This document shows positions 15,083-31,234 of a stretch of DNA of 64,000 nucleotides, piece by piece (within the stretch, counting starts at the first letter, position 1; every line of letters begins with the position of its first letter). Where the stretch lies: NCBI RefSeq assembly GCF_000813985.1, contig NZ_JWLJ01000001.1, forward strand, positions 794,453 through 858,452, given 5' to 3'. The translations under genes were made by a program, and so were the position numbers. Below the pieces are notes generated by a model. It saw only the letters and a program-made list of their open reading frames with translations, had not been told where the DNA came from and ran no database searches. This DNA comes from Ruegeria sp. ANG-R (lineage in GTDB: Bacteria; Pseudomonadota; Alphaproteobacteria; Rhodobacterales; Rhodobacteraceae).

Positions 15083-15104
15083 CGTGTACTGTATACAGTA
15101 TACA
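15083..15104. promoter_or_regulatory. GntR operator of the glutamate-synthase-like operon
   Basis: TGTATACAGTATACA at 15090-15104 is a perfect 7-1-7 palindrome. It overlaps a second, weaker copy (CGTGTACTGTATACA, 15083-15097). The pair sits 26 bp upstream of the proposed ATG at 15130. The same sequence, with at most two changes, precedes three other transcription units nearby. Confidence 0.8.
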
Positions 15105-16074: not shown

Positions 16075-16784
16075 GCGAGGTGGCAGCAACAATGGATGAG
16101 ATCGTCATTGAAGTCGGCAAGCGGCATATCCGAGAAGTGAACCGCGAGATCATGGAGGCCTGCGCGACAGGTCGGCCGATCCGTGTGGTCGATACTCTGT
16201 CTCGCCATAATCTGGGTGTGGGTCTGCCGGACAATGTGGACATCACTTTCGAGGGATCGGTTGGGTACTACTGCGGTGGCCTCAATATCGGTGCGAACAT
16301 CTCGATTGAACGTAATTGCGGCTGGGCCGTGGGTGAAGGCATGGCCAAAGGGCACATCACCGTGGGTGGGTATGCCGGTATGTCCTGTGGCGCCGCAATG
16401 ATTGGCGGAACGATCCATGTCAAAGGCGATGCCGGACCTCGGGTTGGTGTTGCGATGAAAGGTGGAAACATCGTTGTCGAGGGCAAGATCGGGTATCAAT
16501 CTGGTTTCATGGCACATTCCGGGCGGATCATCGCGCTTGGCGGGGCAGGGGAATCCTGTGCCGATGCGCTTTGGGAAGGCGAGGTCTGGGTGGCTGGCGA
16601 GGTTGACAGCTTGGGCGTCGATGTCGACGTGATCGAACCGACAGCCGAAGAAGTGGCCGAGGTCGACGCAATCCTCGACCCGCTCGGGCTTGTCGACAGT
16701 TCGCGAAATTGGCGCAAAATGGTTTCGGGCCAGCGTCTTTGGTATTTTGAAAGCAGGGACGCAAGCGCATGGCTCATGATCTGA
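16071..16784 (+). CDS. Glutamate synthase domain-3-like subunit (GlxC/MgsB-like)
   Basis: A 237-residue protein made largely of GXXG repeats (IGANISIERNCGWAVGEGMAKG, GGYAGMSCGAAMIGGTIHVKG, GGNIVVEGKIGYQSG) that form the right-handed beta helix at the C terminus of glutamate synthase large subunits. It has no catalytic site of its own and serves as a structural subunit linking the amidotransferase and FMN domains. It overlaps the previous gene by ATGA and the next by 16 bp, showing tight translational coupling. Confidence 0.87.
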   Translation: MSEVAATMDEIVIEVGKRHIREVNREIMEACATGRPIRVVDTLSRHNLGVGLPDNVDITFEGSVGYYCGGLNIGANISIERNCGWAVGEGMAKGHITVGGYAGMSCGAAMIGGTIHVKGDAGPRVGVAMKGGNIVVEGKIGYQSGFMAHSGRIIALGGAGESCADALWEGEVWVAGEVDSLGVDVDVIEPTAEEVAEVDAILDPLGLVDSSRNWRKMVSGQRLWYFESRDASAWLMI

Positions 16785-18193
16785 GTAAACCTTACGAATA
16801 TCCGTTCGACGTCGCCTCGGAAGAGGAAATCAGATTTCGCGACGCCGGCGCCATCGAAGGCCGCCCGGCCGGTGTTCCCTCCTCTTACGATGAGGGCGGA
16901 TCGACACGCTGGACGCCCGAGGCGATCTCAGAGGTTCACGCGCTGGCGCAGCTTGGGCGGTATCAGGTGCGTGGGTACAACACGTTCAACAAGCAATTGC
17001 CGACATTCGACGATCTGACATTCGTTCCTGCGACGATGACCCGCCTGCCGCTCGAAGGCTATCGCGAGAGTTGCGATACGACGACTGTTCTGGGCGCAGG
17101 TCGTGGTCTTGTAGAGCGTCCGCTTGAATTGAAGATTCCGATTTACATCGCCTCAATGTCCTTTGGTGCCTTGTCGGCATCGGCGAAGGCATCGCTGGGG
17201 TATGGGGCCTCTAAAGTGGGAACCATGACCTGCACGGGCGAGGGTGGCATGTTGGAAGAGGAGCGCGAAGCCTCCCAGCGCCTGCTCTATCAGATGTCAC
17301 CCGCCCGGTATGGTGTGGATCTGGATCATTTGCGCCGCGCCGATGCTCTGGAACTTGTCGTCGGGCAAGGGGCGAAACCGGGAACAGGCGGTCTGCTGCT
17401 GGGTATGAAAGTTAGCCCGCGCGTCAGCCAGATGCGAACGTTGCCCGAGGGAGTGGACCAACGATCGACCATCCGTCACCCCGATTTCTTGGGGGCAGAC
17501 GATCTGTCAGTGAAGATCGAAGAGCTGCGCATTGCCACCAACTATCAGGTGCCGATCTTCATCAAGATGGGCGCGACGCGCCCTCGGTTTGACGTGGCAG
17601 TTGCCGCCAAGGCGGGCGCGGATGTTGTGGTTGTTGATGGCGCCGAGGGCGGCACCGGAGCCTCGCCGGAACTGTTGCTGAACCATACCGGCATTCCAAC
17701 CATGAGCGCTATTCGCGCTGCACGAGAGGCGCTGGACGAATGCGGAATGACCGGCAAAGTGTCACTCGTTGCGGCAGGTGGTATCCGGTCTGGTGTGGAT
17801 GCCGCCAAATGTCTGGCACTGGGCGCTGATGCGGTGATGATCGGTAACGCGGCTATGGTCGCGCTGGGATGCAACAGCCCAAGATATCTGGACGATTACG
17901 CAGCTTTGGGAACGTCCCCCGGTGCTTGCCATCATTGCCATACGGGCCGTTGCCCCGTCGGCATTGCGACACAGGATGAAAAGCTGGAGGCGCGCATGAA
18001 CCCCAACGCTGGCGCTGAACGCATTGCGCGCTATCTGACCGCGATGACCATGGAGATCACTGCATTGGCAAAGGCGTGTGGAAAATCCTCGGTCCACAAT
18101 CTGGAAACCGAAGACCTGCGCGCCCTCAGCTTCGAAGCATCAGCCTTTACAGGGGTAAAAATGGCTGGAATTGACAGGGCTTACGATTGGTGA
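16769..18193 (+). CDS. FMN-binding glutamate synthase subunit (GlxD/MgsC-like)
   Basis: A 474-residue TIM-barrel synthase domain of the GltB/GlxD family. Seen are the FMN and substrate region ASMSFGALSASAKASLGYGA, VVVDGAEGGTGASPE, VAAGGIRSGVDAAKCLALGADAV and the iron-sulfur cysteines in CHHCHTGRCPVGIATQ. In the N-methylglutamate pathway the equivalent subunit joins an amine and 2-oxoglutarate into an N-alkylglutamate. With the glutamine-synthetase-like and BMC genes under the same operators, a similar amine-glutamate condensation is my preferred role here; a plain glutamate synthase is the alternative. Confidence 0.88.
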   Translation: MAHDLSKPYEYPFDVASEEEIRFRDAGAIEGRPAGVPSSYDEGGSTRWTPEAISEVHALAQLGRYQVRGYNTFNKQLPTFDDLTFVPATMTRLPLEGYRESCDTTTVLGAGRGLVERPLELKIPIYIASMSFGALSASAKASLGYGASKVGTMTCTGEGGMLEEEREASQRLLYQMSPARYGVDLDHLRRADALELVVGQGAKPGTGGLLLGMKVSPRVSQMRTLPEGVDQRSTIRHPDFLGADDLSVKIEELRIATNYQVPIFIKMGATRPRFDVAVAAKAGADVVVVDGAEGGTGASPELLLNHTGIPTMSAIRAAREALDECGMTGKVSLVAAGGIRSGVDAAKCLALGADAVMIGNAAMVALGCNSPRYLDDYAALGTSPGACHHCHTGRCPVGIATQDEKLEARMNPNAGAERIARYLTAMTMEITALAKACGKSSVHNLETEDLRALSFEASAFTGVKMAGIDRAYDW

Positions 18194-18885
18194 GGATCGC
18201 GGTTCTCGAGCTGACAACCCACCCCTTGCCACTATTGGAGGGGATGCCGCGAACCGCGCAACAGATTCAGGAGTGGATCGCGCCGCACCTGCCTGAGGCC
18301 GAGTTTGTGGTGGCAGGGGTGGTCGACGGCGCGCCGCTTCCCGAACACAGAGACCTCGATGGGGTCATCGTCGGCGGATCGGAATTCGGTGTTTACGATG
18401 ATACGGAATGGATGCAGCCGCTGCGCGCGTTCCTCGACCGCTGTCGTGAGTTTCGCACACCGGTCTTTGGAATCTGTTTCGGGCACCAGATCATGGCTGA
18501 CGTCTATGGCGGACGCGCCGAGAAAGCCGAGGTTGGTAACGTCGTTGGTGCGCGTAGTTTTAACTATGACGATGACGAGGTTGACGCTTTTGTCTGGCAT
18601 CAGGATCAGGTGACGCAGGTTCCGGATTCCGCACGGGTGACGGGATCGGCACGTCACTGTCCGGTTGGGGCGCTGGACTACGACTTCCCCGCGCGGTCCG
18701 TGCAATTTCATCCCGAATACAAGGCGCATCACCTGCAGGAACTGTTCACAAGAGGGCGCGAAGTTCTTCTGTCACCGGGTGAAGCGGATACGGGCATGAC
18801 CTCGGTGAACGCCGCAGAGGTTCCGGATGATCTTGCTGCCTTGCAGGCCGTGGAACTGTTTCGGGGCACTTACAGTCCGCGATGA
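18190..18885 (+). CDS. Class I glutamine amidotransferase-like hydrolase
   Basis: A 231-residue GATase I domain with nucleophile Cys96 in FGICFGHQIM and the catalytic His174/Glu176 in QFHPEY. It stands alone, without a synthetase domain, like enzymes that hydrolyse gamma-glutamyl bonds (the PuuD role in putrescine catabolism) or unassigned GMP-synthase-like proteins. GTG 18190 gives a GTGA overlap with the preceding stop; TTG 18187 is an alternative. As last gene of the operon it may hydrolyse a gamma-glutamylated intermediate, which is inference from context. Confidence 0.8.
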   Translation: MRIAVLELTTHPLPLLEGMPRTAQQIQEWIAPHLPEAEFVVAGVVDGAPLPEHRDLDGVIVGGSEFGVYDDTEWMQPLRAFLDRCREFRTPVFGICFGHQIMADVYGGRAEKAEVGNVVGARSFNYDDDEVDAFVWHQDQVTQVPDSARVTGSARHCPVGALDYDFPARSVQFHPEYKAHHLQELFTRGREVLLSPGEADTGMTSVNAAEVPDDLAALQAVELFRGTYSPR

Positions 18886-18941: not shown

Positions 18942-18956
18942 TGTATACTGTATACA
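18942..18956. promoter_or_regulatory. GntR operator upstream of the DUF6455 gene
   Basis: TGTATACTGTATACA is a perfect 7-1-7 palindrome, matching the operator at 15090 except for the central base. It lies only 22 bp before the ATG at 18979, compatible with repression. Confidence 0.78.
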
Positions 18957-18978
18957 TGGCGATATAAAGGGTTTCGGA

Positions 18979-19329
18979 ATGTCAGGATACAAGGATTTTT
19001 TTCAGCGAATAGCGCGGATCGTCAATGCTCCGCGCGATGAAAGCATCAGCGATCTTGAATTGTCTGATCTCGGACTTTCCCGGGCGGATCTGGCCATGTT
19101 GCGATCCGGTGCGCCCGACGCCCGAGCGCGCATCCTCTCGATGGCCAGTCAGTTTGGTCTGAGCGAAAACGATCTGAACGCGCATCCTGAGCTTAGTCTG
19201 GAGTTGGCGGAAAAATGCGGGCATTGCCGTCAGGCAAAAACATGCCGCGATGCCATTCGGTCAGGGGATCGCCTGCCGCAAGAGAAATGCCCGAACTCCG
19301 GATTGTATCAGGCTCTGTCCGAGGGTTAA
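18979..19329 (+). CDS. DUF6455-like cysteine-containing small protein
   Basis: A 116-residue cytoplasmic protein. An N-terminal helical region carries LELSDLGLSRADLAML, and a C-terminal cysteine cluster reads CGHCRQAKTCRDAI followed by KCPNSGLY. The arrangement fits the DUF6455 family common in Rhodobacterales, whose function is unknown; four cysteines could bind a metal. ATG 18979 is preferred because an upstream start would run through the operator. It has its own GntR operator and ends 4 bp inside the convergent FAD oxidoreductase gene. Its place in the island regulon is the only functional hint. Confidence 0.75.
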   Translation: MSGYKDFFQRIARIVNAPRDESISDLELSDLGLSRADLAMLRSGAPDARARILSMASQFGLSENDLNAHPELSLELAEKCGHCRQAKTCRDAIRSGDRLPQEKCPNSGLYQALSEG

Positions 19330-20465
19330 CGCCCGCTGGGGCTTTCCTTCGGGCTTAGTTTTCTGCGGCCGGTAATCTTGAAACGATCAGCCGTTCCGAA
19401 ATCCTTCATCCCAACACCTGCGGCAAACTCTGCGAAAACCGGCGCGTGTTTGAACAGATGTCCCGAGCAACCTCCGGCGAACAGCACGTTTTCGTGCTCG
19501 GGGTGCCAGTCGACAATAAAGTGCGTGTCGGGTGTCAGGATGATTTGATTGAATTTGGAATCCACGACCCTCTCGCCCTCAAGGCCTGGCAAGCGATGCC
19601 GGATGTAGCTGCGCGTTCGGCCCAGCGTTTCCTGCCGGATCAGCCTTTCGTCATTGTCCAGATCGATCTTGTCCGGAATGACGACCGCAGCTTTGACGCC
19701 AGAACCTTCGGATGAAGGCAAGCCAAAAGAGCCCTGACCGTGATCGATCCAGCAGGGCATCCGGCTCATGTCGAACTCCTCGGACCCGTCAGGCGTCGAT
19801 GTATAAAGGACGTTAACGCCAACCACCGTTGATATAGGTTTGATTGTTCTGGGGAACATGTCCGCCATCCATGGGCCGGTCGATACAACGATCAAATCCG
19901 CCTCGAGCGGTTTGCCATCTAGCATTGGGCGCTCTGATCCATCGGTGGTCACGCGACCGCGTTCTACCGTGCCGCCCGCGCGACGAAACAGGTCCAGCCC
20001 GGTCAGGACACAACGATGCGCCATCAGCATTCCGGCTTCGGGTTCGAACAGAGCGTATTCGATGTCAGGGACACGGAACTGGGGAAACCGTGATTCGATG
20101 TCCTGCCGCCCGAACTTGTAGTAGGGCACGCCAACACGGTCGAAAGTTTCTGCTGTGGCGTTCTCCCAATCACAATGACCGCCCGTTGCCAGAATCAGTG
20201 CGCCGCATTCGTACATCAGGTTCTGACCACTTTCCGCCTGAAGTTCCAGCCAGCGCAGGCGGCTCTCCCGCGCCCAACGTGTATAGAACTCGTCGCGCCC
20301 GGAAATGGCGCGGATAACCCGGTTGTAATCCGTTGAAGATGCACGAGAATGTCCCGGTTCCCAGCGATCAATCAGGGTCACGGATTCGCCACGCCTTTGC
20401 AGTGTAAGCGCCGTCATGACGCCGACGATGCCACCTCCGACAACGATGACCGAGCTCTTGGACAT
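19326..20465 (-). CDS. FAD-dependent amine oxidoreductase (sarcosine-oxidase-like)
   Basis: A 379-residue DAO-fold flavoprotein with the N-terminal FAD motif VIVVGGGIVGVMTALTLQRRG and the C-terminal block TPDTHFIVDWHPE then FAGGCSGHLFKHAPVFAE, as in monomeric sarcosine and N-methyltryptophan oxidases. The Cys that carries covalent flavin in monomeric sarcosine oxidase (a few residues before TPD) appears to be Asn here, so FAD may be noncovalent or the acceptor different. AAGGAAAA precedes the start. It is divergent from the glutamine-synthetase-like gene, and both share one operator region. A likely job is oxidation of an N-alkylglutamate or gamma-glutamylamine to an aldehyde. Confidence 0.85.
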   Translation of the reverse strand: MSKSSVIVVGGGIVGVMTALTLQRRGESVTLIDRWEPGHSRASSTDYNRVIRAISGRDEFYTRWARESRLRWLELQAESGQNLMYECGALILATGGHCDWENATAETFDRVGVPYYKFGRQDIESRFPQFRVPDIEYALFEPEAGMLMAHRCVLTGLDLFRRAGGTVERGRVTTDGSERPMLDGKPLEADLIVVSTGPWMADMFPRTIKPISTVVGVNVLYTSTPDGSEEFDMSRMPCWIDHGQGSFGLPSSEGSGVKAAVVIPDKIDLDNDERLIRQETLGRTRSYIRHRLPGLEGERVVDSKFNQIILTPDTHFIVDWHPEHENVLFAGGCSGHLFKHAPVFAEFAAGVGMKDFGTADRFKITGRRKLSPKESPSGR

Positions 20466-20499: not shown

Positions 20500-20521
20500 T
20501 GAATACTGTATACAGAATACA
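20500..20521. promoter_or_regulatory. Double GntR operator between the oxidase and BMC operon
   Basis: Two overlapping 15-bp palindromes, TGAATACTGTATACA (20500-20514) and TGTATACAGAATACA (20507-20521), share the central half-site. They lie between the divergent starts at 20465 and 20558, so one complex could control both units. Confidence 0.78.
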
Positions 20522-20557: not shown

Positions 20558-21850
20558 ATGAGTTCGGGATTTGATCTGCCCGAAGGCACGCACACCGTCA
20601 TACTGGGGGTGGGTGACCTGAATGGCATCATGCGCGGCAAGCGCATTCCGGCCAGCCACTGGGACCACGTCTGCAAAAGCGGCAATGCGCTGTCGATTGC
20701 GTTGATGGCCATCGACATGACATGCGATGTCTGGGACACGCCTTATGTCAATTTCGACAACGGCTACCCGGATATGCACGTTTTTCCGATGACCAAACCC
20801 GTCTCTGTACCGTGGGAGCCGGGTGTGGCCGTATGTTTTGGCCGCGCAGAGGGGATGGATCACAAGCCAGTCCCGATCGATCCGCGTCAGGCGCTGCTGC
20901 GTCAGGTTGAGCGTGCCCGTGAGATGGGGTTCGAGGTCAATGTCGGCACCGAGCTGGAATTCTATCTTCTGGACCCGGAAACAGGCCAGCCGCGCGACAA
21001 CGGCATTCAGGTCTATGGTTTGGGGCGTGCCGCACGGATGGAGCACATTGTTGGTCCGATCCGTCAACAGATCAACGAATGTGGCATCCCCATCGAACAA
21101 TCGAACCCGGAATACGCCGCAGGCCAGATCGAGGTGAACATCCGCTACGGCGAGGCGCTGGCTGCGGCTGACCGTGTCGTCCTGTTCAAATCTCTTATCC
21201 GCCAGCTGGGGATTGCACACGGATATCTGGCGACCTTTATGCCAAAGCCCTTCTTCGATCAGTCGGGCAACGGGTTCCACACACATTATTCACTCTGGAA
21301 AGACGGCAGGAATGTCTTCGCCGACAACGGCAAGATCAACGAGACCGGAAAGTCCTTCATCGCCGGGTTGCAGCAACGCATGTGTGAAACGGCGATCTGC
21401 GGCAGCGGCACGGTCAATGGCTACCGGCGGCGCCAGCCCTATACGTTCTGCCCGATCAACGCGAGCTGGGGCTATGACAATCGCACCGTCGGTATTCGGG
21501 TCATCGAAGGGTCCGACAGTGCAGTTCGTGTTGAAAAACGCGATGCCGGTGCAGATGCGAATCCCTACCTCCTGCTTGCTGCCGAGATTGCGGCGGGGCT
21601 CGACGGGATCGAACAGGGTTTGTCCCCGTCAGAGCCGACAACCGGCAACGCTTACGAAGACGGGATCGGCGACCCCATTCCTACCGATTTGCCAACGGCT
21701 ATCGAACTGGCGCGGGGATCAGAGTGGTTGCGCGATGTTCTGGGCGAAATGCTGTGGGAACTGGTGTTGCAACAGGCCGAGCGCGAGCTCGAGTTCTTCA
21801 ACCAGCAGGTCACTCAGGTTGAGCTGGACCGTTACCTGAGGACGTTCTGA
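20558..21850 (+). CDS. Glutamine-synthetase-like gamma-glutamyl ligase
   Basis: A 430-residue glutamine synthetase fold enzyme. It has the N-terminal beta-grasp part, then VGTELEFYLLD (metal glutamates), QIEVNIRYG, GNGFHTHYSLWKDG (the ATP/glutamate loop) and NASWGYDNRTVGIRVI. It lacks the adenylylation tyrosine region of GlnA and resembles PuuA and gamma-glutamylmethylamide synthetase (GmaS) types, which join glutamate to an amine other than ammonia. ACAGGGAGAG sets ATG 20558. It is the first gene of the BMC operon and is followed by TGATG overlap with a shell gene. The amine substrate is unknown. Confidence 0.87.
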   Translation: MSSGFDLPEGTHTVILGVGDLNGIMRGKRIPASHWDHVCKSGNALSIALMAIDMTCDVWDTPYVNFDNGYPDMHVFPMTKPVSVPWEPGVAVCFGRAEGMDHKPVPIDPRQALLRQVERAREMGFEVNVGTELEFYLLDPETGQPRDNGIQVYGLGRAARMEHIVGPIRQQINECGIPIEQSNPEYAAGQIEVNIRYGEALAAADRVVLFKSLIRQLGIAHGYLATFMPKPFFDQSGNGFHTHYSLWKDGRNVFADNGKINETGKSFIAGLQQRMCETAICGSGTVNGYRRRQPYTFCPINASWGYDNRTVGIRVIEGSDSAVRVEKRDAGADANPYLLLAAEIAAGLDGIEQGLSPSEPTTGNAYEDGIGDPIPTDLPTAIELARGSEWLRDVLGEMLWELVLQQAERELEFFNQQVTQVELDRYLRTF

Positions 21851-22116
21851 TGCATCTGGGCAAGGTCGCCGGAACCGTCACCGCAACCGCCAAGGACGCC
21901 AAGCTGGTCGGTGCAAAGCTGCTGGTGACGGATCTGGTCGACAGCAAAGGCAAAGTGATCGATCCGGCACGGGTTGCTGTCGACACCTGCGGTGCCGGGG
22001 TCGGGGACACGGTTCTGGTGGTCGGCGGCTCTGCGGCGCGTATGGCGGGGGGACTGTCCACCGTACCGGTTGACCTTGCGATCATCGCAGTGGTCGACCG
22101 CGTGTCCACGGCCTGA
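21850..22116 (+). CDS. BMC-P pentameric shell protein (EutN/CcmL family)
   Basis: An 88-residue protein with the family pattern: MHLGKVAGTVTATAKDAKLVGAKLLVTDL at the N terminus, VAVDTCGAGVGDTVLVVGGSAAR in the middle and a closing AIIAVVDRV strand. Such pentamers cap the vertices of bacterial microcompartments. Length is usual for the family. Start and stop overlap with the ligase gene by TGATG. It is the only pentamer in this window. Confidence 0.95.
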   Translation: MHLGKVAGTVTATAKDAKLVGAKLLVTDLVDSKGKVIDPARVAVDTCGAGVGDTVLVVGGSAARMAGGLSTVPVDLAIIAVVDRVSTA

Positions 22117-22158
22117 ACCACGAACAGCAAACATCTACTTTATTTGGAGGAATGGAAA

Positions 22159-22467
22159 ATGGCGAAACCAGTGGCGGGGCAGATGGCCCTTGGCATGATT
22201 GAAACACGCGGGCTTGTCGGCGCGATCGAAGCAGCAGATGCGATGGTCAAGGCGGCCAGCGTTTCGATTGTGGGCCAGACCAAGGCGGGCGGCGGTCTGG
22301 TCACCACGCTTGTGCGCGGTGAAGTCGGTGCTGTGAAAGCTGCGACCGACGCGGGCGCAACGGCTGCAAATAAGGTGGGCGAAGTCGTGTCCGTACACGT
22401 GATCGCCCGCCCGCATGATGAGCTTGAGGCCATCATCGACGGGCTTGGTGCCGGCTCAACGGCGTGA
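22159..22467 (+). CDS. BMC-H hexameric shell protein
   Basis: A 102-residue single BMC domain: [27 protein letters not shown], then the pore-loop region [31 protein letters not shown], and a C-terminal [18 protein letters not shown] strand. These hexamers tile the facets of the microcompartment shell, and their central pores pass small substrates. The pore loop KAGGG differs from the common KIGSG. GGAGG at 22146-22150 fixes ATG 22159. A single hexamer gene in the operon implies a simple shell. Confidence 0.96.
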
Positions 22468-22490
22468 TCCGCCTGTTCTGAGGAGAAACC

Positions 22491-23675
22491 ATGTCAGCCG
22501 GATTCGAGGAATTCACGCGTGCCGCGACACGCGGTTCAACCGGGGGAGTGCCTGAACGACCCAGGCTCGACCGAATATCTGTTCTTGGTGGCGGACCGGA
22601 TGCACGCCTGTTGGCCGCGCTTGGTCTTGCCGAGGGGGCAGAGGTCACCCTGTTTTCGGCCTATGGGGTCGAGCTTTCGCTGCTGACCCAATCCTCGGGC
22701 ATCTCGCTGCAGGGTGATGGTCCGGTGGGCACCTATCAGGTCGATCGGGATGGGCCATCGGTACGTACCACCGCAGAGCTGGATGCGGCGGTGCGCGATG
22801 CCCAGGTGATTTTTCTGACCGGTCCGATTCACAAGCAACGCACATATGCCATGGTTCTGGCTGAACACCTTCGCGACGGGCAGATTTTGGTTCTCGCGCC
22901 GGGCCGGTCGATGGGGGCCGTCGAAACGGCATGGCTCTTGCGGATCGGGGGCTGTACCGCAGACGTCACGTTGGTCGAGGTTCAGGGCCTTCCCTATTGG
23001 TTCCGGGCCGAGGGCGCAGGTTTATCCCTTTCGCAGGCCGCTCCGATGGCCGCGGCGACGTTGCCGCGCGGTCGGGACGAGGTTCTCGGAGCACTGTCTG
23101 CCTACCTGCCGAATGTGCAGCCGGTTGAGTCTGTGCTGGCCTCCGGGTTCAACGATCTTTCGGCTGCGGTCGAGATACCGGCCTTGATCCTCGGCGGCGC
23201 CGCAATGGGCGCGGGCGGACCTGATGTACCGATGGGCGGAGTTCCGTTGGAGGCCAACCAGACCTTTGCATCTCTGATCGGAGCCGACCAGAACGAAGTG
23301 ATCCACGGGCTGGCAGATGAGCGACGGCGCGTTGCTGCTGCCTTTGGTGTTCGCAACCTGCCTGAGGCCGAAGAATGGATAAGCACTTTCGCGGGCGCTG
23401 AACGCGGATCGGGCGCGCGTCCGATCCCGGATCAGCAATCGTCGCGCGGGTTGATGCGTGACGGGGTGTTGGGCTCGCTTGTGCCTCTGGTGTCAGCCGC
23501 TGAGCTCGCGGGGATTCCCAGCCCGCTGACGACCAGCCTGATTGCGATGTCCGATCGAATTCTGGGCGCGGACGTAGCTGCTGCCGGACGACGACTGGAA
23601 ACCATTGGAGTTTCGGCCGGCGATGTCGATCAGGCGCGCCGTATCTTTGACACCATCGCCACCGGAGCTTCGTGA
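22491..23675 (+). CDS. Opine/octopine-dehydrogenase-like protein
   Basis: A 394-residue protein. A Rossmann-type NAD(P) fold with ISVLGGGPDARLLAALGLAEGAEVTLFS (about 30-57) is followed by LTGPIHKQRTYAMVLAEHLRDGQILVLAPGRSMGAVETA, and an all-helical C-terminal half contains the VPMGGVPLEANQTFASLIG region. This fits the NAD/NADP octopine/nopaline dehydrogenase family, whose members form or cleave N-(carboxyalkyl)amino acids. GAGGAG lies upstream of ATG. An N-substituted glutamate is chemically opine-like, so a role in cleaving such an intermediate fits the locus, but this is inference. About 25 extra N-terminal residues before the fold might target it to the shell. Confidence 0.72.
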   Translation: MSAGFEEFTRAATRGSTGGVPERPRLDRISVLGGGPDARLLAALGLAEGAEVTLFSAYGVELSLLTQSSGISLQGDGPVGTYQVDRDGPSVRTTAELDAAVRDAQVIFLTGPIHKQRTYAMVLAEHLRDGQILVLAPGRSMGAVETAWLLRIGGCTADVTLVEVQGLPYWFRAEGAGLSLSQAAPMAAATLPRGRDEVLGALSAYLPNVQPVESVLASGFNDLSAAVEIPALILGGAAMGAGGPDVPMGGVPLEANQTFASLIGADQNEVIHGLADERRRVAAAFGVRNLPEAEEWISTFAGAERGSGARPIPDQQSSRGLMRDGVLGSLVPLVSAAELAGIPSPLTTSLIAMSDRILGADVAAAGRRLETIGVSAGDVDQARRIFDTIATGAS

Positions 23676-25054
23676 TGGACGCAGATCTGAAATCGATTGC
23701 CGCCGCCAGACGCGCTGCAGACAGCGCTTTCGAGGCCTATCGTTCCTTTCTGGGTACAGACCCGGCGCAGGTGGATGCGATCGTCGATGCCATGGCCCGT
23801 GCAATTGAACCGGAAGCCGAGCGGCTGGGGCAGATGGCGGTTGAGGAAACCGGCTATGGAAATGTTCCGGACAAGCGGGTCAAGAACCTGTTCAATGCCC
23901 TTTCAGTCGCCGACTACCTAAGGGATGTGACGACACTGGGCCTGCTTTGGCGTGACGACGCGACAAAGATCGCCGCTTTTGGGGAACCGATGGGCGTCGT
24001 GGCGGCTCTGATCCCGGTGACGAACCCGACCTCGACCATCATCTACAAGGTGCTTTCAGCGGTGAAAGCAGGCAATGCCATCGTTTGTGCGCCGCACCCC
24101 CGCGGTGTGGTGTGCGGGATCGAAACAGTTCGCATCATGGCCCGTGTGGCCGAGCAGATGGGAGCGCCCAAGGGTCTTATCCAGTGCTTGGATTCAGTGA
24201 CGATTCAAGGAACGGCCGAGTTGATGAAACACCGCCGTACCTCGGTTGTGATGGCAACCGGTGGTCCGGCCATGGTCAAAGCGGCGTATTCCAGCGGCAA
24301 ACCCACGCTCGCGGTCGGTGCCGGTAACGTGCCGTGTTATGTGCATAAATCGAAAGCGCGCGATCTGGCGGAAGTCGCCGAGATGATCGTGACCTCGAAA
24401 AGCTTCGATTATGGAACGGCGTGCGTCAGTGAGCAGGCGGTCGTCGCTGACCCCGAGATCGCGCGCGACCTGCGTCACGAACTGAAGCTGAAAGGCGCTT
24501 ATTTCTGCACTCCGGCCGAGGCGGACCGTCTGGCCAGAGTGATCTTCAAAGGCGTTCAGGCAATGGACCCCGAAAGGGTGGGGCAAAGCCCTCAGGCGCT
24601 GGCAGATGCTGCCGGGTTTTCGATTCCACCCCGCACCCGGTGTCTTGTGTCAGAAGAGACCGAAGTCGGGTGGCAACGTCCGCTGTCTGCCGAAAAACTG
24701 AACCCCGTTCTGGCGTTTTATGAGGCGAAGTCCACCGACCATGGGATTCAGCTGGCGCAGTCCATCGCAAAATTCGAGGGCTGGGGCCATTCCTCGGTTA
24801 TTCATTCGGACGACCCCGAGGTTGTCGCCCGGTTCGCGACCGTGCCCACAGGGCGGGTTCTGGTGAATACGCCGGGCATCATGGGGGGCATGGGATATTC
24901 GACCGATCTTGAACCATCCTTCATGCTGGGCACCGGCACCTGGTCGGGTTCGATTACATCGGACAATGTGACGGCCCTGCATCTCATCAACATCAAACGG
25001 GTCGCCTATGAAAGCAGACCCTGGCGCGACATTTACGAGGAGTATGGCGCATGA
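23675..25054 (+). CDS. CoA-acylating aldehyde dehydrogenase of the BMC
   Basis: A 459-residue aldehyde dehydrogenase with no C-terminal alcohol dehydrogenase. It has the NAD fold, PVTNPTSTIIYKVLSAVKAGNAIV, and catalytic Cys250 in KSFDYGTACVSEQ. The style is that of acylating acetaldehyde, propionaldehyde and sulfoacetaldehyde dehydrogenases (EutE, PduP, SauS), which turn an aldehyde into an acyl-CoA. In BMCs this is the core luminal enzyme. The N-terminal LKSIAAARRAADSAFEAYRSF helix could act as an encapsulation segment. GGAG spaced 7 bases selects ATG 23675. No phosphotransacylase is encoded nearby, so the acyl-CoA may leave directly. Confidence 0.88.
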   Translation: MDADLKSIAAARRAADSAFEAYRSFLGTDPAQVDAIVDAMARAIEPEAERLGQMAVEETGYGNVPDKRVKNLFNALSVADYLRDVTTLGLLWRDDATKIAAFGEPMGVVAALIPVTNPTSTIIYKVLSAVKAGNAIVCAPHPRGVVCGIETVRIMARVAEQMGAPKGLIQCLDSVTIQGTAELMKHRRTSVVMATGGPAMVKAAYSSGKPTLAVGAGNVPCYVHKSKARDLAEVAEMIVTSKSFDYGTACVSEQAVVADPEIARDLRHELKLKGAYFCTPAEADRLARVIFKGVQAMDPERVGQSPQALADAAGFSIPPRTRCLVSEETEVGWQRPLSAEKLNPVLAFYEAKSTDHGIQLAQSIAKFEGWGHSSVIHSDDPEVVARFATVPTGRVLVNTPGIMGGMGYSTDLEPSFMLGTGTWSGSITSDNVTALHLINIKRVAYESRPWRDIYEEYGA

Positions 25055-25674
25055 GCGAGATTACGATCCGGGCGCTGATGCAGATCGACAACCTTCAGCC
25101 GAAATTCGCCGCCTATAACGGCGCGACGGTGCAGGGTTCGGTACCTTTGTCCGGCGACACAGTACTGATCGGTGAATTTGCACCGGGCAACGGGGTGTTT
25201 TCGCTGATCGACCGGGCGCTCAAGGCGTCCTCGGTCGAGGCGACGACACAGATGGTGGAACGCGAGTTTGGGTTCTTCATCCTGCGATCCCCATCAAATG
25301 CCGAAGTGTCAGCCGCGCGCGATGCGATGCTGGCCGAACTGGGCGCCACGATGTCCGACCGGTTGAAGCCTGCGATCAGTTCCACGCAGATCATCACCAG
25401 TGTCGAACCCTATCAGGCGCAATTGCTGAACAAATGGCGCAAGGGCGCCTTGATCGTTCCGGGCCAAACCCTGGGGATCGTGGAATGTGCCCCGGCCGCC
25501 TATATATCAATCGCCGCGAATGAGGCGGAGAAAGCCGCTGAAATAGACATTGTCGAAGTGCGTGCCGTGGGGCGGTTCGGTCGCCTGTTCATTTCGGGAT
25601 CGGAAAACTCGGTCAAGACCGCCGTCGACGCCGCAACCCGCGCCATCGAGGCGGTGGACGGGCAAGCCGGTTGA
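25051..25674 (+). CDS. BMC-T tandem-domain shell protein
   Basis: A 207-residue protein with two BMC-like domains. The first begins IRALMQIDNLQPKFAAYNGATVQGSVPLSGDTVLIGEF, and the second has PGQTLGIVECAPAAYISIAANEAEKAAEIDIVEVRAVGRFGRLFISG, followed by the usual NSVKTAVDAATRAIEAV helix. Trimers of such proteins form pseudohexamers, often with gated larger pores for cofactors or bulky substrates. ATGA overlap with the aldehyde dehydrogenase stop shows coupled translation. Confidence 0.92.
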   Translation: MSEITIRALMQIDNLQPKFAAYNGATVQGSVPLSGDTVLIGEFAPGNGVFSLIDRALKASSVEATTQMVEREFGFFILRSPSNAEVSAARDAMLAELGATMSDRLKPAISSTQIITSVEPYQAQLLNKWRKGALIVPGQTLGIVECAPAAYISIAANEAEKAAEIDIVEVRAVGRFGRLFISGSENSVKTAVDAATRAIEAVDGQAG

Positions 25675-26855
25675 TGGCAGCACCGCGTGTCATAGGTTCG
25701 GATGCGGTCGAAGATGCTCGCCGCCGGGGCCGGATCGTGTTTGAGGTTCTGCCCGGCGATATCGTGACAGCACTGGCCCGCGAAACGGCTGAGCGCGTTG
25801 GCATTAAGCTTGTCGACGGACCGCTGGAAAAACCGCAGCCGCCACGCACGGATGCGGCGGTCTCGATGCAGCGGGTGCTATATCGCCGTTCGCCCAAATG
25901 GGTCGCGCCCGTGCGGCTGAAACGCAAAGCCCGCAGGCTGGGCAAGCTCGCCTTGATCGGAGCCGGGGGGGTCGGAGGCAACGTGGCACATCTGGCGGCG
26001 ATGCAGGATATCGCGGATGAGATCGCTCTGATCGATATTGCTCCGGGAATGGCCGCTGCAACTGCGTTGGATCTGAACCACACATCCGGCATCACCGGAG
26101 CCAAGGTGCGATGTGTCGGCGGCGAGTCTCTGGATCTCGTGGCAGGGGCCGAGGTGGTCGTGGTAACCGCAGGCCGCGCCCGTCGTCCCGGCATGAGCCG
26201 CGCAGACCTGATCGACGTGAACGCGCGCGTGATCCGTCAGGCCGCCGAGGCGATCCGGTCTGCCGCGCCGGATGCCATCGTGATTGTCGTGACCAATCCG
26301 CTGGACGAAATGACGGTTGAAATGTTGCGGGCCTCCGGGTTCCCCCGCGAGAGGGTTCTGGGAATGGCGGGAACGCTGGACAGCAGCCGGTTTCGAAATG
26401 CGCTTGCCATGGCGGCTGGCGTCACACCCGCCGATGTCGAGGCGTTCACGCTTGGAAGTCACGGAGACGAAATGGCGCCCATCCCCAGCCGTGCGAGGAT
26501 CAAAGGCAGGGCATTGGATACATTTCTGTCGCCTGATCAGATTGCGGCCTGTGTGCAGGACGCAGTGACCGGCGGAGGGCAGGTCGTTGCCCTCAAAAAA
26601 TCCGGCTCGGCAACCATCGCGCCGGCACATGCGTCGATCGAATTGATTGACCATATTCGGGGTGCACGCACCGGGCCGGTTCCGGTGTCCGTTATGTTGC
26701 AGGGGGAATATAGCATTGATGGCGTGGTGCTTGGCGTTCCTGCCCATCTTGGCGCGGGCGGTTTGGTTGAGGTCGAGGAACTGAGGCTGACCGGGCAAGA
26801 ACAAACGGCGTTGCAAAAGGCAGCGGACGCCATTCGTTCGAGGTTGGGTCTGTGA
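25674..26855 (+). CDS. Malate/lactate-dehydrogenase-like protein with EutQ-like N-terminal extension
   Basis: A 393-residue protein. The dehydrogenase part starts only near residue 90: Rossmann loop IGAGGVGGNVAHL (from about 95), acidic IALIDIAP for NAD, the substrate loop RRPGMSRADLIDVN, VTNPLDEMTVEML and catalytic His263 in GSHGDEMAPIP. The first 85 residues contain VEDARRRGR...PGDIVTALARETAERVGIKLVDG (12-49), resembling the ITPEAREVA segment of EutQ and other BMC-associated proteins. MDHs lack this, so it may be a luminal targeting or docking domain. A role in recycling NADH made by the aldehyde dehydrogenase is likely. ATG 25674 gives TGATG overlap. Confidence 0.83.
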   Translation: MAAPRVIGSDAVEDARRRGRIVFEVLPGDIVTALARETAERVGIKLVDGPLEKPQPPRTDAAVSMQRVLYRRSPKWVAPVRLKRKARRLGKLALIGAGGVGGNVAHLAAMQDIADEIALIDIAPGMAAATALDLNHTSGITGAKVRCVGGESLDLVAGAEVVVVTAGRARRPGMSRADLIDVNARVIRQAAEAIRSAAPDAIVIVVTNPLDEMTVEMLRASGFPRERVLGMAGTLDSSRFRNALAMAAGVTPADVEAFTLGSHGDEMAPIPSRARIKGRALDTFLSPDQIAACVQDAVTGGGQVVALKKSGSATIAPAHASIELIDHIRGARTGPVPVSVMLQGEYSIDGVVLGVPAHLGAGGLVEVEELRLTGQEQTALQKAADAIRSRLGL

Positions 26856-27262
26856 CCCTCCGCACCTGGAAATCAGGCGGACGTTTCGAAGAGATCGCGT
26901 CTTATTCACGGGCCAAGCGCATCGGGCCTTTTGTCTGGGTTGCGGGGACAACCGCCATCGAACCCAGCGGGCGCATTCACGCGCCCGGCGATGTCGGCGC
27001 GCAGACAAGCTATATTCTGTCGCGCATCGAAGAGGCACTCAAAGCGGTCGGGGCCGAGCTGCACCATGTTGGCCGCGTTCGCGCATATCTGACCGATCTG
27101 TCACAGGCCGGTGAGTTTGCACGGGTTCACGGCAAGTTTTTTCATCGGGTCGATCCGGTTCTGACCGCCGTACAGGCTGGGCTGACCCAGCCCGGTTTGA
27201 TGGTGGAAATCGATGTTGACGCGGTAATTCACGACGAAAACGGCCAAATCGTCGGAATCTGA
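26852..27262 (+). CDS. Rid family (YjgF/YER057c/UK114) protein
   Basis: A 136-residue chorismate-mutase-like fold with RIGPFVWVAGTTAI, QTSYILSRIEEALKAVGA and VEIDVDAVI. RidA removes reactive enamines and imines from amine metabolism. However, the active-site Arg (PARSCVEV in RidA) appears replaced by Leu (DPVLTAVQA), as in Rid subfamilies without proven deaminase activity. GTG start with GTGA overlap. Last gene of the BMC operon; an imine formed during amine oxidation is the plausible ligand. Confidence 0.85.
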   Translation: MTLRTWKSGGRFEEIASYSRAKRIGPFVWVAGTTAIEPSGRIHAPGDVGAQTSYILSRIEEALKAVGAELHHVGRVRAYLTDLSQAGEFARVHGKFFHRVDPVLTAVQAGLTQPGLMVEIDVDAVIHDENGQIVGI

Positions 27263-27302: not shown

Positions 27303-27324
27303 TGTGTACTGTATACAGAATACA
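27303..27324. promoter_or_regulatory. Double GntR operator upstream of the ABC transporter
   Basis: TGTGTACTGTATACA (27303-27317) overlaps TGTATACAGAATACA (27310-27324). The second is identical to the operator at 20507. It lies 35 bp before the substrate-binding-protein ATG, giving this downstream unit its own regulated promoter. Confidence 0.78.
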
Positions 27325-27358: not shown

Positions 27359-28639
27359 ATGATCAAAACAGCGCTACTCAGCGGAACATGCATCGCGCTC
27401 ATGGCCTCGGCGGCCGGAGCGGAAATCAAGGTAGGGTTTATCGGATCTCTTTCGTCGGACACCGGTCTGTCGACGCTGCGCGGTGCCGAGATCGCGATTG
27501 AGGAACTCAATGCGAAGGGCGGGGTGATGGGGGAACAGATCACCCTGGTTTCCGCCGATACCGGGCAGGACCCGACCGAAGGCGTGCGGGCCTATGAGTA
27601 TCTGGCGGAAACCGAAGAGGTCGATTTCATCATTTCGGGCTCGATTGACGATGTGTCTTTGGGCTGGCTGCCGCGAATGCAGGAATACCGGATACCAACA
27701 CTGGACACCTGGACGTCCTATATCGGGATCATCGACATGGTGGTCGAAGACCCCGAGAGTATGACGCCGTATTTCATGAATATCGCCTCGGACGAGGCAC
27801 TGGCGACGCTCTACATCAATTTCGGCGCGGACGTTCTGAAGGATAAGATGGGCTGGGAATCCGTCGTCATCCTGGCCGAGGACACAGCATTCGGAGAAGC
27901 CATCACCGGCCTGGTAACCGAAGCGCTTGCTCCGGTTGCCGGGATCGAGGTCAAGGACATCATCACCTATGATGTGGCTACGGTCGACTTCGCGCCAATC
28001 TTCAGCCGGGCGCAGGACACCGGGGCGGACTTTATCTATCAGGTGTCATCCGTGAACTCGCAGGTTGTTTCGTCGCAATATGTGAAACTTCAGGTCCCGA
28101 TGGCGATGACGGGCGTGAATGTCTCGGCTCTGGGAATGGAATATTGGGAGGACACAGGCGGTGCCGGTGGCGGCATCTCGACCCTGTCGCCTGTCCCATC
28201 TGTGGGGTTCAAGCTGGACCCGGCCAGCCAGGAGTTTGTCGACACCTATCAGGCCAAGTATGACAGCCGCCCGCTGCTGCCTCACTTTAACGGGTTCAAT
28301 GCCTATCACGGTCTGAAACAGGCGATGGCCGCCGCGGAAGAGGCGGGGGGATTTGACAATGTAGAAGCCTGGGCCGAGGCGATGAAAAAGCAAGACCTTG
28401 TGCTGGACATGGATGGCGAGCTATGGCTGCGCTACGCATTCTGGGGTGATGACGAGGTAGAGCCGGTGACCGACCGAACCTATCCGCACAATGCCCGCTT
28501 TGATCTCTCGGAACCGTTCGATGATGCCCAGCCCTCTATGGTTGTGGTGCAATGGTATGAAGATGGCACCGCAGCGGTGGTTTACCCCGACAAATACGCG
28601 ACCGGTGAATTCACCTTGCCAAGCTGGGTCAGCGAGTAA
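27359..28639 (+). CDS. ABC transporter substrate-binding protein (LIV/amide type)
   Basis: A 426-residue periplasmic binding protein. The signal peptide MIKTALLSGTCIALMASAAGA is followed by EIKVGFIGSLSSDTGLSTLRGAEIAIEELNAKGG, a type 1 fold of the branched-chain amino acid / urea / amide family. AGGGAG at 27345-27350 sets ATG 27359. Long C-terminal lobes with many Asp/Glu and aromatic residues do not identify the ligand. As it shares the island operators, its ligand is probably the amine or amide broken down by the BMC pathway. Confidence 0.88.
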   Translation: MIKTALLSGTCIALMASAAGAEIKVGFIGSLSSDTGLSTLRGAEIAIEELNAKGGVMGEQITLVSADTGQDPTEGVRAYEYLAETEEVDFIISGSIDDVSLGWLPRMQEYRIPTLDTWTSYIGIIDMVVEDPESMTPYFMNIASDEALATLYINFGADVLKDKMGWESVVILAEDTAFGEAITGLVTEALAPVAGIEVKDIITYDVATVDFAPIFSRAQDTGADFIYQVSSVNSQVVSSQYVKLQVPMAMTGVNVSALGMEYWEDTGGAGGGISTLSPVPSVGFKLDPASQEFVDTYQAKYDSRPLLPHFNGFNAYHGLKQAMAAAEEAGGFDNVEAWAEAMKKQDLVLDMDGELWLRYAFWGDDEVEPVTDRTYPHNARFDLSEPFDDAQPSMVVVQWYEDGTAAVVYPDKYATGEFTLPSWVSE

Positions 28640-28664
28640 CCTGGCCTTAAACGTAGCTTGAAAC

Positions 28665-28686
28665 GGGCGCGCGGTGGCGCGCGCCT
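28665..28686 (+). promoter_or_regulatory. GC-rich mRNA hairpin between binding protein and permease
   Basis: GGCGCGCG (28666-28673) and CGCGCGCC (28678-28685) form an 8-bp stem around GTGG. No U run follows. Such structures after binding-protein genes protect the upstream mRNA, so the binding protein is made in excess over the membrane subunits. Confidence 0.6.
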
Positions 28687-28704
28687 GCAGCCAAGGATCC
28701 ATAC

Positions 28705-29556
28705 ATGTTGCAGATACTGATTCAGGGGCTTTTGCTCAGTGGTCTTTACGCGCTCATCGCGATGGGTTTCACGCTGATCTTCAGTATTGGCCGCGTTCTG
28801 AATCTCGCCTACGGCGCCTACCTGATGGTCGGCGGCTACATCTACTTCTGGGTATCCCAATCGCTAGGAATGCCCAAGCTGATCGGGGTCGCCGTGGCCG
28901 CAGCGTTAGGTGTGCTGATGGGGGTCCTGAAATACCGCCTGATCGTCAAGACGCTCAAAGGGGATCATGTGGCGGTTGAGATCTCGACGCTGATCCTGGC
29001 GGTGGTCATACAGGCGGGGATCGTGTTGGTCTTTGGCGACAGCAGCAAGATTCTGTTGCCGATTGTTCCCGGCGTGATCAACGTGGCCGGGGCGTCCGTC
29101 ACCTTTAACATTCTGATCGCGACCCTCATCAGTTGGGCTATTCTGTTGGGGCTCTACGCCTTTGTGCGGCTGACGCATACCGGGCGGGCGATGCAGGCGG
29201 TTTCGATGGATGCCAAAGGCGCTGCGATTTCCGGCATAGACCCCGATCGCATCAATCTGATCACATGGGGTATCTCCGGCGCGTTGGGCGCAATCGGCGG
29301 TGTCTTCTTCGCCAGCTATACTCAATTGTCGCCATCCATGTGGGTCGCTCCTCTTATCATCTCGGTCGCTGTGGTCATCGTGGGTGGAATCGGTTCGATC
29401 CTCGGCACGTTGGTGGTAGCCCATATCGTCGGGTTCCTCGAAGTTATCGTGGTGGCAACGCTTGCTCCGGAACTGCGTGGCGTCTTCACGATGCTGTTGA
29501 TCATTGGTGTGCTGATTACGCGGCCACAGGGGCTGTTCGGCCGTGAGGAGCTTTGA
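28705..29556 (+). CDS. Branched-chain amino acid/amide-type ABC permease (LivH-like)
   Basis: A 283-residue inner-membrane permease with about eight hydrophobic helices. It begins LIQGLLLSGLYALIAMGFTLIFSIGRVLNLAYG, the standard LivH opening, and has the cytoplasmic EAA-like stretch MQAVSMDAKGAAISGIDPDRINLITWGISGALGAIGG that contacts the ATPase. It pairs with the next permease, which begins just after its stop. Confidence 0.92.
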   Translation: MLQILIQGLLLSGLYALIAMGFTLIFSIGRVLNLAYGAYLMVGGYIYFWVSQSLGMPKLIGVAVAAALGVLMGVLKYRLIVKTLKGDHVAVEISTLILAVVIQAGIVLVFGDSSKILLPIVPGVINVAGASVTFNILIATLISWAILLGLYAFVRLTHTGRAMQAVSMDAKGAAISGIDPDRINLITWGISGALGAIGGVFFASYTQLSPSMWVAPLIISVAVVIVGGIGSILGTLVVAHIVGFLEVIVVATLAPELRGVFTMLLIIGVLITRPQGLFGREEL

Positions 29557-29558
29557 CG

Positions 29559-30506
29559 ATGGGCCTGCGTTGGTTTCACTTTGCACTCTGGGGTGGCTTG
29601 ATCGCCGGAATGTTCCTGTTGCCGCAAGTCGTCTCGAACGGAACATTGCGAACGATGATCTTCGCCAACTATCTGGCAATCTTTGCCATCAGTTGGGATG
29701 TGCTGTCGGGCCGAACCGGATATGTCAGCTTTGGCCACCCGTTCCTGATCGGTATCGGGGCCTACACCACCGCGATCCTGACTAAGCGCTTTGATATCCC
29801 GGTCGAAATCTCGATACCGGTGGCCGTTGTTTTCACCATGATTGCCGGTCTGCTGGTCTTGCTGCCGGCCCTACGCATCCGGGGTAGCTATTTCGCTCTG
29901 GTCACGCTGGCCTTCATGGAGTTGCTGTATCAGCTGGTTCAGGTCATCCGCCCGGATCTGACCGGAGGAACGCGCGGGATGTCTGGTATTCAAACGCTGA
30001 CACGCGGTGCCGCGAACGGCTACTACCTGTCCACGGCACTGATGCTGGCCATCGCTGTCAGCATGTGGTTGCTGATGAAGACACGCCTGGGCACTGCCTT
30101 GTCGGCCATCGGCATGAACGAGGAGAGTGTTCGCGGTTCGGGCCTCAGCACCACGCGCCTCAAGGCATTTGCCTTCCTGACAAGCGCGATGATCGCCGGA
30201 TTGGGTGGTGCGTTTTACGTTCACTATCTGGGATCGCTCGCACCCCGTGCCCTGTTTGATATCAATTTCCTGTTCACGATCATTGTCGCCGCGCTTCTGG
30301 GCGGAACCTCGACCATCATCGGGCCCATGATCGGCGCTTTCTTCATGACCTTCCTGTTGGAGTATCTGCGGCCGGTCCTTCCCGGGGCTGAACGCTACTT
30401 TGTCTATGGTGCCATTGCGTTGCTTCTCTACATGTATCAGCCCAAAGGCATTGTTGAGCTTGTGAAGCGCGGTTTCAAAAACCTGAGCAAGGGGCGGACG
30501 GCATGA
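29559..30506 (+). CDS. Branched-chain amino acid/amide-type ABC permease (LivM-like)
   Basis: A 315-residue permease with the LivM signature YLAIFAISWDVLSGRTGYVSFGHPFLIGIGAYTTAIL and the coupling region LGTALSAIGMNEESVRGSGLSTTRLKAFAFLTSAMIAGLGGAFY. GTGAGGAGC just upstream supports ATG 29559; TTG 29553 is an in-frame alternative. It overlaps the next ATPase gene by ATGA. Confidence 0.92.
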   Translation: MGLRWFHFALWGGLIAGMFLLPQVVSNGTLRTMIFANYLAIFAISWDVLSGRTGYVSFGHPFLIGIGAYTTAILTKRFDIPVEISIPVAVVFTMIAGLLVLLPALRIRGSYFALVTLAFMELLYQLVQVIRPDLTGGTRGMSGIQTLTRGAANGYYLSTALMLAIAVSMWLLMKTRLGTALSAIGMNEESVRGSGLSTTRLKAFAFLTSAMIAGLGGAFYVHYLGSLAPRALFDINFLFTIIVAALLGGTSTIIGPMIGAFFMTFLLEYLRPVLPGAERYFVYGAIALLLYMYQPKGIVELVKRGFKNLSKGRTA

Positions 30507-31234
30507 GCGCAGCGTTGCAGGTTTCGGGTCTGGTCAAACGTTTCGGCGGTTTGGTCGCAACGAATGATCTGTCTTTTTCGCTTAACGAGGGCGAGTCGTT
30601 GGGTTTGATCGGTCCCAACGGCGCGGGCAAGACAACCGTATTCAGCCAGATCATGGGCGAGCTGCGGCAGAATAGCGGGACAATTGAGTTGTTTGGAAAG
30701 GAAATCTCGGCCCTGTCCACGCCTCAACGCATCCGGGCGGGCGTCAGCCGAACCTATCAAATTCCGCGACCATTCGGTGACATGAGTGTCGCCGAGAACA
30801 TCCGGGTGGGTCTGATGCCTGACGATATCCGGCGCATGATCTTCTCGCCCCCGGACACAGAACGCGAGAGAGAACTTGCACTAAGCGTCGGGTTCTCAGA
30901 AGAGGACCTTGACCGCACGCCGACTGAACTGGCCATGGGCGATCTGCGCAAGCTTGAGATGGCGCGCACGATGGCGACTGCGCCGAAGGTGATGTTGCTA
31001 GACGAGGTGTTTGCCGGGCTCACCACCGGGGAGATCGCCCAAATTTCCGATCTCATTCAGTCGATGCGCAAGGACGGAATGACCTTCCTGATCGTCAGCC
31101 ACGACTTGCCGGCACTTGAGCCGCTGATTGACCGTGCGATCGCCATTGAACGGGGCACCATGATTGCCGAGGGTTCGTTCAGCGACGTGATGAACGACAA
31201 GGCTGTTCAGGCCTCGTACCTGGGGGGCGCGTGA
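30503..31234 (+). CDS. ABC transporter ATPase (LivG-like)
   Basis: A 243-residue ATPase with Walker A GPNGAGKTT, the LivG-type extended region after SRTYQIPRPFGDMSVAENI, a signature helix (TELAMGDLRKLEMARTMATAPKVMLLDEVFAGLT, where the canonical LSGGQ is degenerate as AMGDL) and the H-loop in IVSHDL. It energises the transporter together with the LivF-like subunit. Confidence 0.9.
   Translation: MSAALQVSGLVKRFGGLVATNDLSFSLNEGESLGLIGPNGAGKTTVFSQIMGELRQNSGTIELFGKEISALSTPQRIRAGVSRTYQIPRPFGDMSVAENIRVGLMPDDIRRMIFSPPDTERERELALSVGFSEEDLDRTPTELAMGDLRKLEMARTMATAPKVMLLDEVFAGLTTGEIAQISDLIQSMRKDGMTFLIVSHDLPALEPLIDRAIAIERGTMIAEGSFSDVMNDKAVQASYLGGA

Follow-up and report, generated by a model that had tools for sequence, protein, structure and literature searches.

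A minimal microcompartment operon

The 64,000-nucleotide stretch of Ruegeria sp. ANG-R analysed here (contig NZ_JWLJ01000001.1, positions 794,453 to 858,452; hereafter the window) contains a bacterial microcompartment (BMC) operon at positions 20558-27262, which a preliminary description had proposed from the letters alone. Its coordinates were correct: eight open reading frames (ORFs) on the plus strand touch or nearly touch one another, and Pfam and NCBIfam models returned the eight products that had been named, namely a glutamine synthetase (GS)-like ligase, the shell proteins BMC-P, BMC-H and BMC-T, an opine-dehydrogenase-fold protein (ODH), an aldehyde dehydrogenase (ALDH), a malate dehydrogenase (MDH)-like enzyme and a Rid-family protein.

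20558..21850, plus: GS-like gamma-glutamyl ligase (PF00120; Gln-synt_C 296 bits)
21850..22116, plus: BMC-P vertex pentamer (PF03319; EutN_CcmL 86 bits)
22159..22467, plus: BMC-H facet hexamer (PF00936; BMC 91 bits)
22491..23675, plus: ODH, opine-dehydrogenase-fold protein (Octopine_DH 24.1 bits, below the 30-bit cut-off)
23672..25054, plus: CoA-acylating ALDH, start likely 23675 (Aldedh 90 bits)
25051..25674, plus: BMC-T tandem-domain shell protein of CcmP type (BMC 44 bits)
25671..26855, plus: MDH-like enzyme with an N-terminal extension of about 90 residues, start likely 25674 (Ldh_1_N/C 124/78 bits)
26852..27262, plus: Rid-family protein (PF01042; Ribonuc_L-PSP 77 bits)

Membership among the BMCs is clear, as the BMC-H and BMC-P genes are adjacent, with PF00936 and PF03319 scores over the cut-offs, and a PF00171 ALDH, as in metabolosomes, is encoded beside them. 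The host genome gave two PF00936 matches and one PF03319 match, all at this operon, which is the sole BMC locus found there. A broken operon or pseudo-shell could be ruled out, because the frames are open and conserved. The preliminary description had also remarked on what the operon lacks, and neither a B12 enzyme nor a glycyl-radical enzyme was found among the 18 proteins scanned between 14.3 and 30.5 kb; phosphotransacylase and alcohol dehydrogenase were likewise absent from this set, leaving the metabolosome core incomplete. The role of the alcohol dehydrogenase may be taken by the MDH-like enzyme.

Conservation and the wider gene set

One genome per species was scanned with an ODH alignment, which yielded 68 related loci; because two ODH peptide patterns served as its key, more distant relatives would escape it. 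The loci were alphaproteobacterial (Rhodobacterales, Hyphomicrobiales/Rhizobiaceae and Geminicoccaceae) and gammaproteobacterial (Granulosicoccaceae, Arenicellales, Chromatiales and Thiotrichaceae). Shell genes and enzymes, whose co-occurrence the preliminary description had singled out for checking, are conserved together: the arrangement DAO(-)|GS-BMC-P-BMC-H-ODH-ALDH-BMC-T-MDH-Rid, in which DAO is a divergently transcribed FAD enzyme, showed zero deviation in order or strand across the 68 loci. Every gene was present wherever the contig left room for it (DAO 62/62, GS 63/63, BMC-P 64/64, BMC-H 66/66, ALDH 63/63, BMC-T 60/60, MDH 58/58, Rid 57/57), and the substrate-binding protein (SBP) of an ABC importer lay nearby in 47 of the 55 loci with room. 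Mean identity to the window was highest for BMC-T (88%), BMC-H (87%) and ALDH (84%), and lowest for BMC-P (59%) and ODH (61%). Among neighbouring ORFs, which were picked by codon-usage score, the only other recurrent group was that of SDR-family genes in 7/68 loci, other groups reaching at most three; the SDR genes of L038, L042 and L043, inspected for substrate, gave no lead.

The system appears rare in a sample of 385 Alphaproteobacteria, since ODH was found at E 1e-20 only in the window's own genome. Shell-gene matches occur in 20% of genomes overall according to the main text of a 2021 BMC catalogue (PMC8217296). BMCs had been described as uncommon in Rhodobacteraceae, and BMC-P was indeed detected in only 22 of 394 genomes of this family, comprising 12 with the window type (judged by neighbours), 8 with another type only and 2 with a tandem BMC-P. 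That other type occurs in 10/394 genomes (L017-L024, L027, L028), G014 and G227 holding both; by eye, L189 and L190 encode a DeoR-like regulator, a class III aminotransferase, an ALDH and BMC-T/H, with an APH-kinase-like gene in L190, and this type resembles the RMM-type BMCs for amino alcohols. The tandem BMC-P lies beside BMC-H in G177 and G181 (L012, L013, L025, L026), and these loci are perhaps carboxysome-like.

The operon belongs to a larger set that resembles a regulon and also includes a GntR-GlxBCD unit, DAO and the ABC transporter; these surround it in the window as follows.

14330..15001, minus: GntR/FCD-family protein, presumed regulator of the set (PF00392 and PF07729)
15085..15102: operator-like palindrome in the GntR/GlxB gap, TGTACTGTATACAGTATA
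15130..16074, plus: GlxB/MgsA-like class II glutamine amidotransferase, N-terminal Met-Cys (PF13522/PF13537)
16071..16784, plus: GlxC/MgsB-like GXGXG subunit (PF01493)
16769..18193, plus: GlxD/MgsC-like FMN glutamate-synthase subunit (PF01645, 327 bits)
18187..18885, plus: class I glutamine amidotransferase, accessory (PF00117)
18979..19329, plus: small protein with no family match in the scans
19326..20465, minus: DAO, FAD enzyme of monomeric-sarcosine-oxidase type, divergent from the operon (PF01266)
20502..20519: operator-like palindrome in the DAO/GS gap, AATACTGTATACAGAATA
27305..27322: operator-like palindrome 5' of the transporter, TGTACTGTATACAGAATA
27359..31941, plus: Liv/Urt-type ABC importer, with SBP at 27359-28639
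28705-29556 and 29565-30506, plus: importer permeases
30503-31234 and 31231-31941, plus: importer ATPases

GlxD was inside the fetched stretch in 37/68 loci. The genomes of 24 of the other 31 loci were searched, and 23 of them carried elsewhere a GlxD 82-93% identical to that of the window, the next paralog reaching at most 58%. Within Rhodobacteraceae, a close GlxD (E <=1e-200) was found in 12/12 genomes with the window-type BMC versus 3/382 others (Fisher p 1.8e-20 over the 394 genomes, kinship uncorrected). The N-terminal Cys of GlxB is conserved in 33/33 aligned rows. In the 37 GlxD-holding loci, GntR was present in 30 (and also beside the remote GlxBCD of L144 and L145), the class I glutamine amidotransferase was matched in 29, some of these matches being weak, and the small protein in 15. 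A second GlxBCD-GS set of the host, at G000:C41:55756-58269 (L131, L135), is perhaps the ordinary methylamine or glnT set; its GlxD and GS are 54% and 37% identical to those of the window.

One palindrome (AATACTGTATACAGAATA) precedes GlxB, sits between DAO and GS and precedes the SBP gene, and its 17-base pattern, allowing up to 2 mismatches, is confined to these three sites in the genome of 4.68 Mb; the genome scan gave seven overlapping matches versus one for a reversed control pattern. With the consensus derived from the window itself, at least 14 of 18 bases matched in 59/62 DAO-GS gaps and 26/28 GntR-GlxB gaps, against a background of 26 of 2000 random 110-base stretches from the same loci. 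At 1 mismatch, 13 of the 14 relatives searched carried sites, the reversed control giving a single match over all 14. Of 34 listed sites in relatives, 30 were fetched, and all of these hold GntR/GlxB, DAO/GS, SBP or Rid; of the remaining four, three are no more than 5 bases away from a fetched site, and the fourth, in G328, was left out. The palindrome also accompanies the remote GlxBCD in G328, G109, G213 and G227. The pattern search gave no site in the remote-GlxBCD stretches L100-L119, and no good match was seen in L097-L119, all of which stop short of the GlxB start and are thus uninformative. A weaker copy (ATACTGTATACATGGC, 2 mismatches) lies at 18944-18961, before the small protein at 18979. 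From these shared sites we infer that the GlxBCD unit, DAO with the BMC operon, and the importer could form one regulon, with the GntR protein as its presumed, putative regulator. The conserved palindrome and the co-inheritance point to the missing upstream enzymes, most of them encoded outside the operon, and they define a substrate class that can be tested.

Predicted degradation of a short-chain amine

Judging from its sequence, this metabolosome gene set could degrade a short-chain primary amine via N-alkylglutamate, and the resulting aldehyde would likely be converted to acyl-CoA inside the shell, a reading to which we give a probability of roughly 0.57. The preliminary description had assigned the operon to an aldehyde derived from a glutamylated amine; the glutamate-loaded amine leading to an aldehyde is kept here, but half of the system, namely DAO, GlxBCD and the ABC importer, had been missed. 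A small primary amine would be imported by the ABC transporter and joined by GS to glutamate at the expense of ATP, giving a gamma-glutamyl amide, from which GlxBCD would transfer the alkylamino group onto 2-oxoglutarate to form N-alkylglutamate, as GmaS and MgsABC do with methylamine. DAO could then oxidise the N-alkyl bond, and hydrolysis of the imine, perhaps with Rid, would give aldehyde and glutamate; release of the aldehyde could be due to DAO or to an encapsulated ODH. The CoA-acylating ALDH would convert the aldehyde to acyl-CoA and NADH, and MDH would re-oxidise NADH with oxaloacetate, so that reducing power would exit as malate rather than as alcohol. Ethylamine or another C2-C4 amine is our guess for the substrate, prompted by the ALDH family and by a GmaS that accepts ethylamine (Km 58 uM; PMC7948447). 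Formaldehyde is an unlikely product, given that a CoA-acylating ALDH and a shell await the aldehyde.

The entry steps have a precedent, in that GmaS and NMGS are presented as a GS/GOGAT (glutamate synthase) analogue in PMC6237917 and PMC3160333, and the window likewise has, next to its GS-like ligase, a GOGAT-like synthase split over three genes, the same palindrome preceding both units. It could instead be argued that GS and GlxBCD form a private GS/GOGAT pair for re-assimilating ammonia, the aldehyde coming from elsewhere, for example from an N-substituted amino acid that is imported and used by DAO; the glutamate-synthase family of GlxD and the amino-acid/amide type of the importer would fit, but further GS genes and a second GlxBCD-GS set are already present in the host, and together with the GmaS-MgsABC precedent this makes the idea very improbable. 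The importer SBP matched only distant Liv-type structures, with no clue to its substrate.

The closest PDB structure to DAO is monomeric sarcosine oxidase, whose Arg52, Lys265 and Lys348 align with Arg, Lys and Lys of DAO in 52/53, 53/53 and 53/53 rows. Given the roles of these residues, they would favour as substrate an amino acid bearing a secondary amine rather than an amide, and DAO is likely an N-alkylglutamate oxidase. The C-terminus of DAO, past the aligned sarcosine-oxidase core, reads SPSGR in 51/53 rows. The known Puu pathway employs a GS, a DAO-family oxidase, an ALDH and a class I glutamine amidotransferase, all of which are encoded here (the amidotransferase in 29/37 GlxD loci). 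A route of this kind, nearest to the preliminary description, would have DAO oxidise a gamma-glutamylated diamine or amino alcohol, with the aldehyde staying glutamylated until the amidotransferase removes the glutamate last, and gamma-glutamylation of ethanolamine and polyamines is already recorded (PMC9397018). Nevertheless, it leaves no place for GlxBCD despite the shared palindrome and co-inheritance, DAO is of the sarcosine-oxidase type, and the best NCBIfam model for the ALDH is TIGR02518, the acetylating acetaldehyde dehydrogenase (504 bits, cut-off 620), PuuC scoring far lower (37 bits); we consider this route quite improbable. Among the best 120 of 7017 ALDH homologs, proteins 89-90% identical were labelled Planktomarina temperata, and no named outgroup appeared for its placement.

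ODH combines the Rossmann and helical domains of CENDH/OcDH with an added N-terminal helix and linker resembling an encapsulation peptide. At the position of the opine-dehydrogenase catalytic His, presumably His202 of 1bg6, it carries Glu in 63/66 and Asp in 3/66 rows, so that the His-Asp dyad is missing. One explanation makes ODH the lumen enzyme: N-alkylglutamate would enter via the BMC-T pore, ODH would oxidise the alkyl side with NAD+, ALDH would take the aldehyde and MDH would recycle both NADH, DAO being auxiliary or serving overflow. Opine dehydrogenases, however, cut on the keto-acid side, which would give back the amine and not an aldehyde; the replaced His and a DAO kept just as strictly (62/62) also argue against this explanation, which seems unlikely. 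A related and doubtful proposal keeps the N-alkylglutamate route and takes N-alkylglutamate as an opine-like aldehyde carrier to the shell, where the Glu-for-His ODH would release the aldehyde and malate would export the electrons. MDH retains in 46/46 rows the Arg of malate-type specificity and the His of catalysis, and its N-terminal extension forms a small fold in the AlphaFold model, with no convincing match among PDB sequences. At the position of the substrate-binding Arg of canonical RidA, Rid has PVLTAV, with no Arg there in 56 rows, and it may use another substrate.

Several observations weigh against the N-alkylglutamate route in the form given above. GS passed no NCBIfam equivalog cut-off, and its family scores fix no amine substrate. 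No recognised encapsulation peptide was seen on DAO, leaving the need for a shell around an aldehyde made outside it unexplained; the peptide-like N-terminus is instead on ODH, which has no settled role in the route. The ALDH, on which no encapsulation peptide was seen either, lacks the C-terminal extension that its family model and the type I BMC ALDHs have. Imine hydrolysis by Rid is uncertain because of the absent Arg, recycling of CoA is unexplained because there is no phosphotransacylase, and the class I glutamine amidotransferase would also suit a Puu-like route. As to the regulon and co-inheritance, G014, although it carries the BMC, showed no palindrome at 1 mismatch, and none around its GlxBCD (L143) at 3; a good palindrome match is missing from 3/62 DAO-GS and 2/28 GntR-GlxB gaps; GlxD is absent from the L045 genome, 1 of the 24 searched, with 7 of the 31 loci outside that search; and no close GS was found in G087, one of the shell-free genomes.

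The three Rhodobacteraceae genomes with a close GlxD and no window-type BMC (G019, G064 and G087) had no PF03319 match and no ODH, except one marginal 56-residue match in G087. Their GlxBCD clusters contain Rid, a relative of GntR and, at up to 3 mismatches, the palindrome. In the G064 cluster (L140), GS, GlxBCD and Rid are joined by an ordinary ALDH, two acyl-CoA ligases of the AMP-forming kind (one an MbcS-like acyl-CoA synthetase), an FAD amine oxidase different from DAO, and a permease with 79% identity to one of the BMC loci. Its ALDH and acyl-CoA ligase seem to be replaced in the BMC loci by the shell with the CoA-acylating ALDH, ODH and MDH. A second GS of G064 (74%) adjoins an SBP 86% identical to that of the window; at L184 (G064:C306) of this genome, some 0.6 kb containing the palindrome but no shell genes separates a GS ortholog from an SBP ortholog, which may represent loss of the BMC operon or a state preceding its gain. 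In G087 (L141) the cluster comprises GlxBCD, ALDH, the FAD oxidase and Rid. That of G019 (L142) combines GlxBCD and GS with Rid and a Liv-type transporter of lower similarity; what looks by eye like part of an FAD oxidase lies where the contig ends. The GS tree, with very long paralog branches and an outgroup row (L128) that is the wrong ORF, was too poorly resolved at its base to decide between shell loss and shell-free ancestry. Through these clusters, what may be a single pathway can be compared in its natural forms with and without a shell.

Comparison with known systems

Titles and abstracts were searched for this locus and for a glutamate-fed BMC route, with no such paper among the matches listed, and the pathway assignment would be new relative to the literature examined. 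If it is true, BMCs would join marine amine turnover by roseobacters; if release of the aldehyde by ODH and export of malate also hold, marine roseobacters and their relatives would have BMCs with an entry chemistry and a redox valve that are both new.

The N-methylglutamate pathway (GmaS, MgsABC, MgdABCD) shares with the window a GS-like ligase, a glutamate-synthase-like complex split over three genes and, after these, a flavoenzyme related to sarcosine oxidase. In the window, however, this enzyme is a single-subunit DAO of monomeric sarcosine oxidase type, the heterotetrameric MgdABCD is not in the locus, and GlxD is 54% identical to the host's other GlxD. ODH differs from the opine dehydrogenases (CENDH 1bg6, octopine dehydrogenase) by Glu or Asp for His and by its N-terminal helix and linker.

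Among BMCs, the EUT and type I ALDH metabolosomes have an ALDH of the same family (TIGR02518), whereas the window locus is without ethanolamine ammonia-lyase, EutD, EutG and the C-terminal encapsulation extension of the ALDH. RMM BMCs use an aminotransferase and a kinase; these amino-alcohol compartments likewise handle an amine-derived aldehyde and have a BMC-T (5l39) related to that of the window, for which glutamylation is predicted instead. The MIC types, with an incomplete core, are like the window in having an ALDH without phosphotransacylase, alcohol dehydrogenase or an obvious signature enzyme. The catalogue's main text names ACI, FRAG1-7, HO, MIC2-7 and MUF2-3 as ALDH-bearing loci without an obvious aldehyde-making enzyme (PMC8217296), lists MIC3 with a CcmP-like BMC-T and describes the MIC3 ALDH as phylogenetically similar only to that of ACI. 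The BMC-T of the window is CcmP-like as well, with CcmP as its best NCBIfam model (205 bits, cut-off 340) and CcmP, the HO-BMC trimer and CsoS1D as its best PDB matches. By the catalogue's main-text description, the locus probably belongs to the MIC types and is perhaps MIC3.

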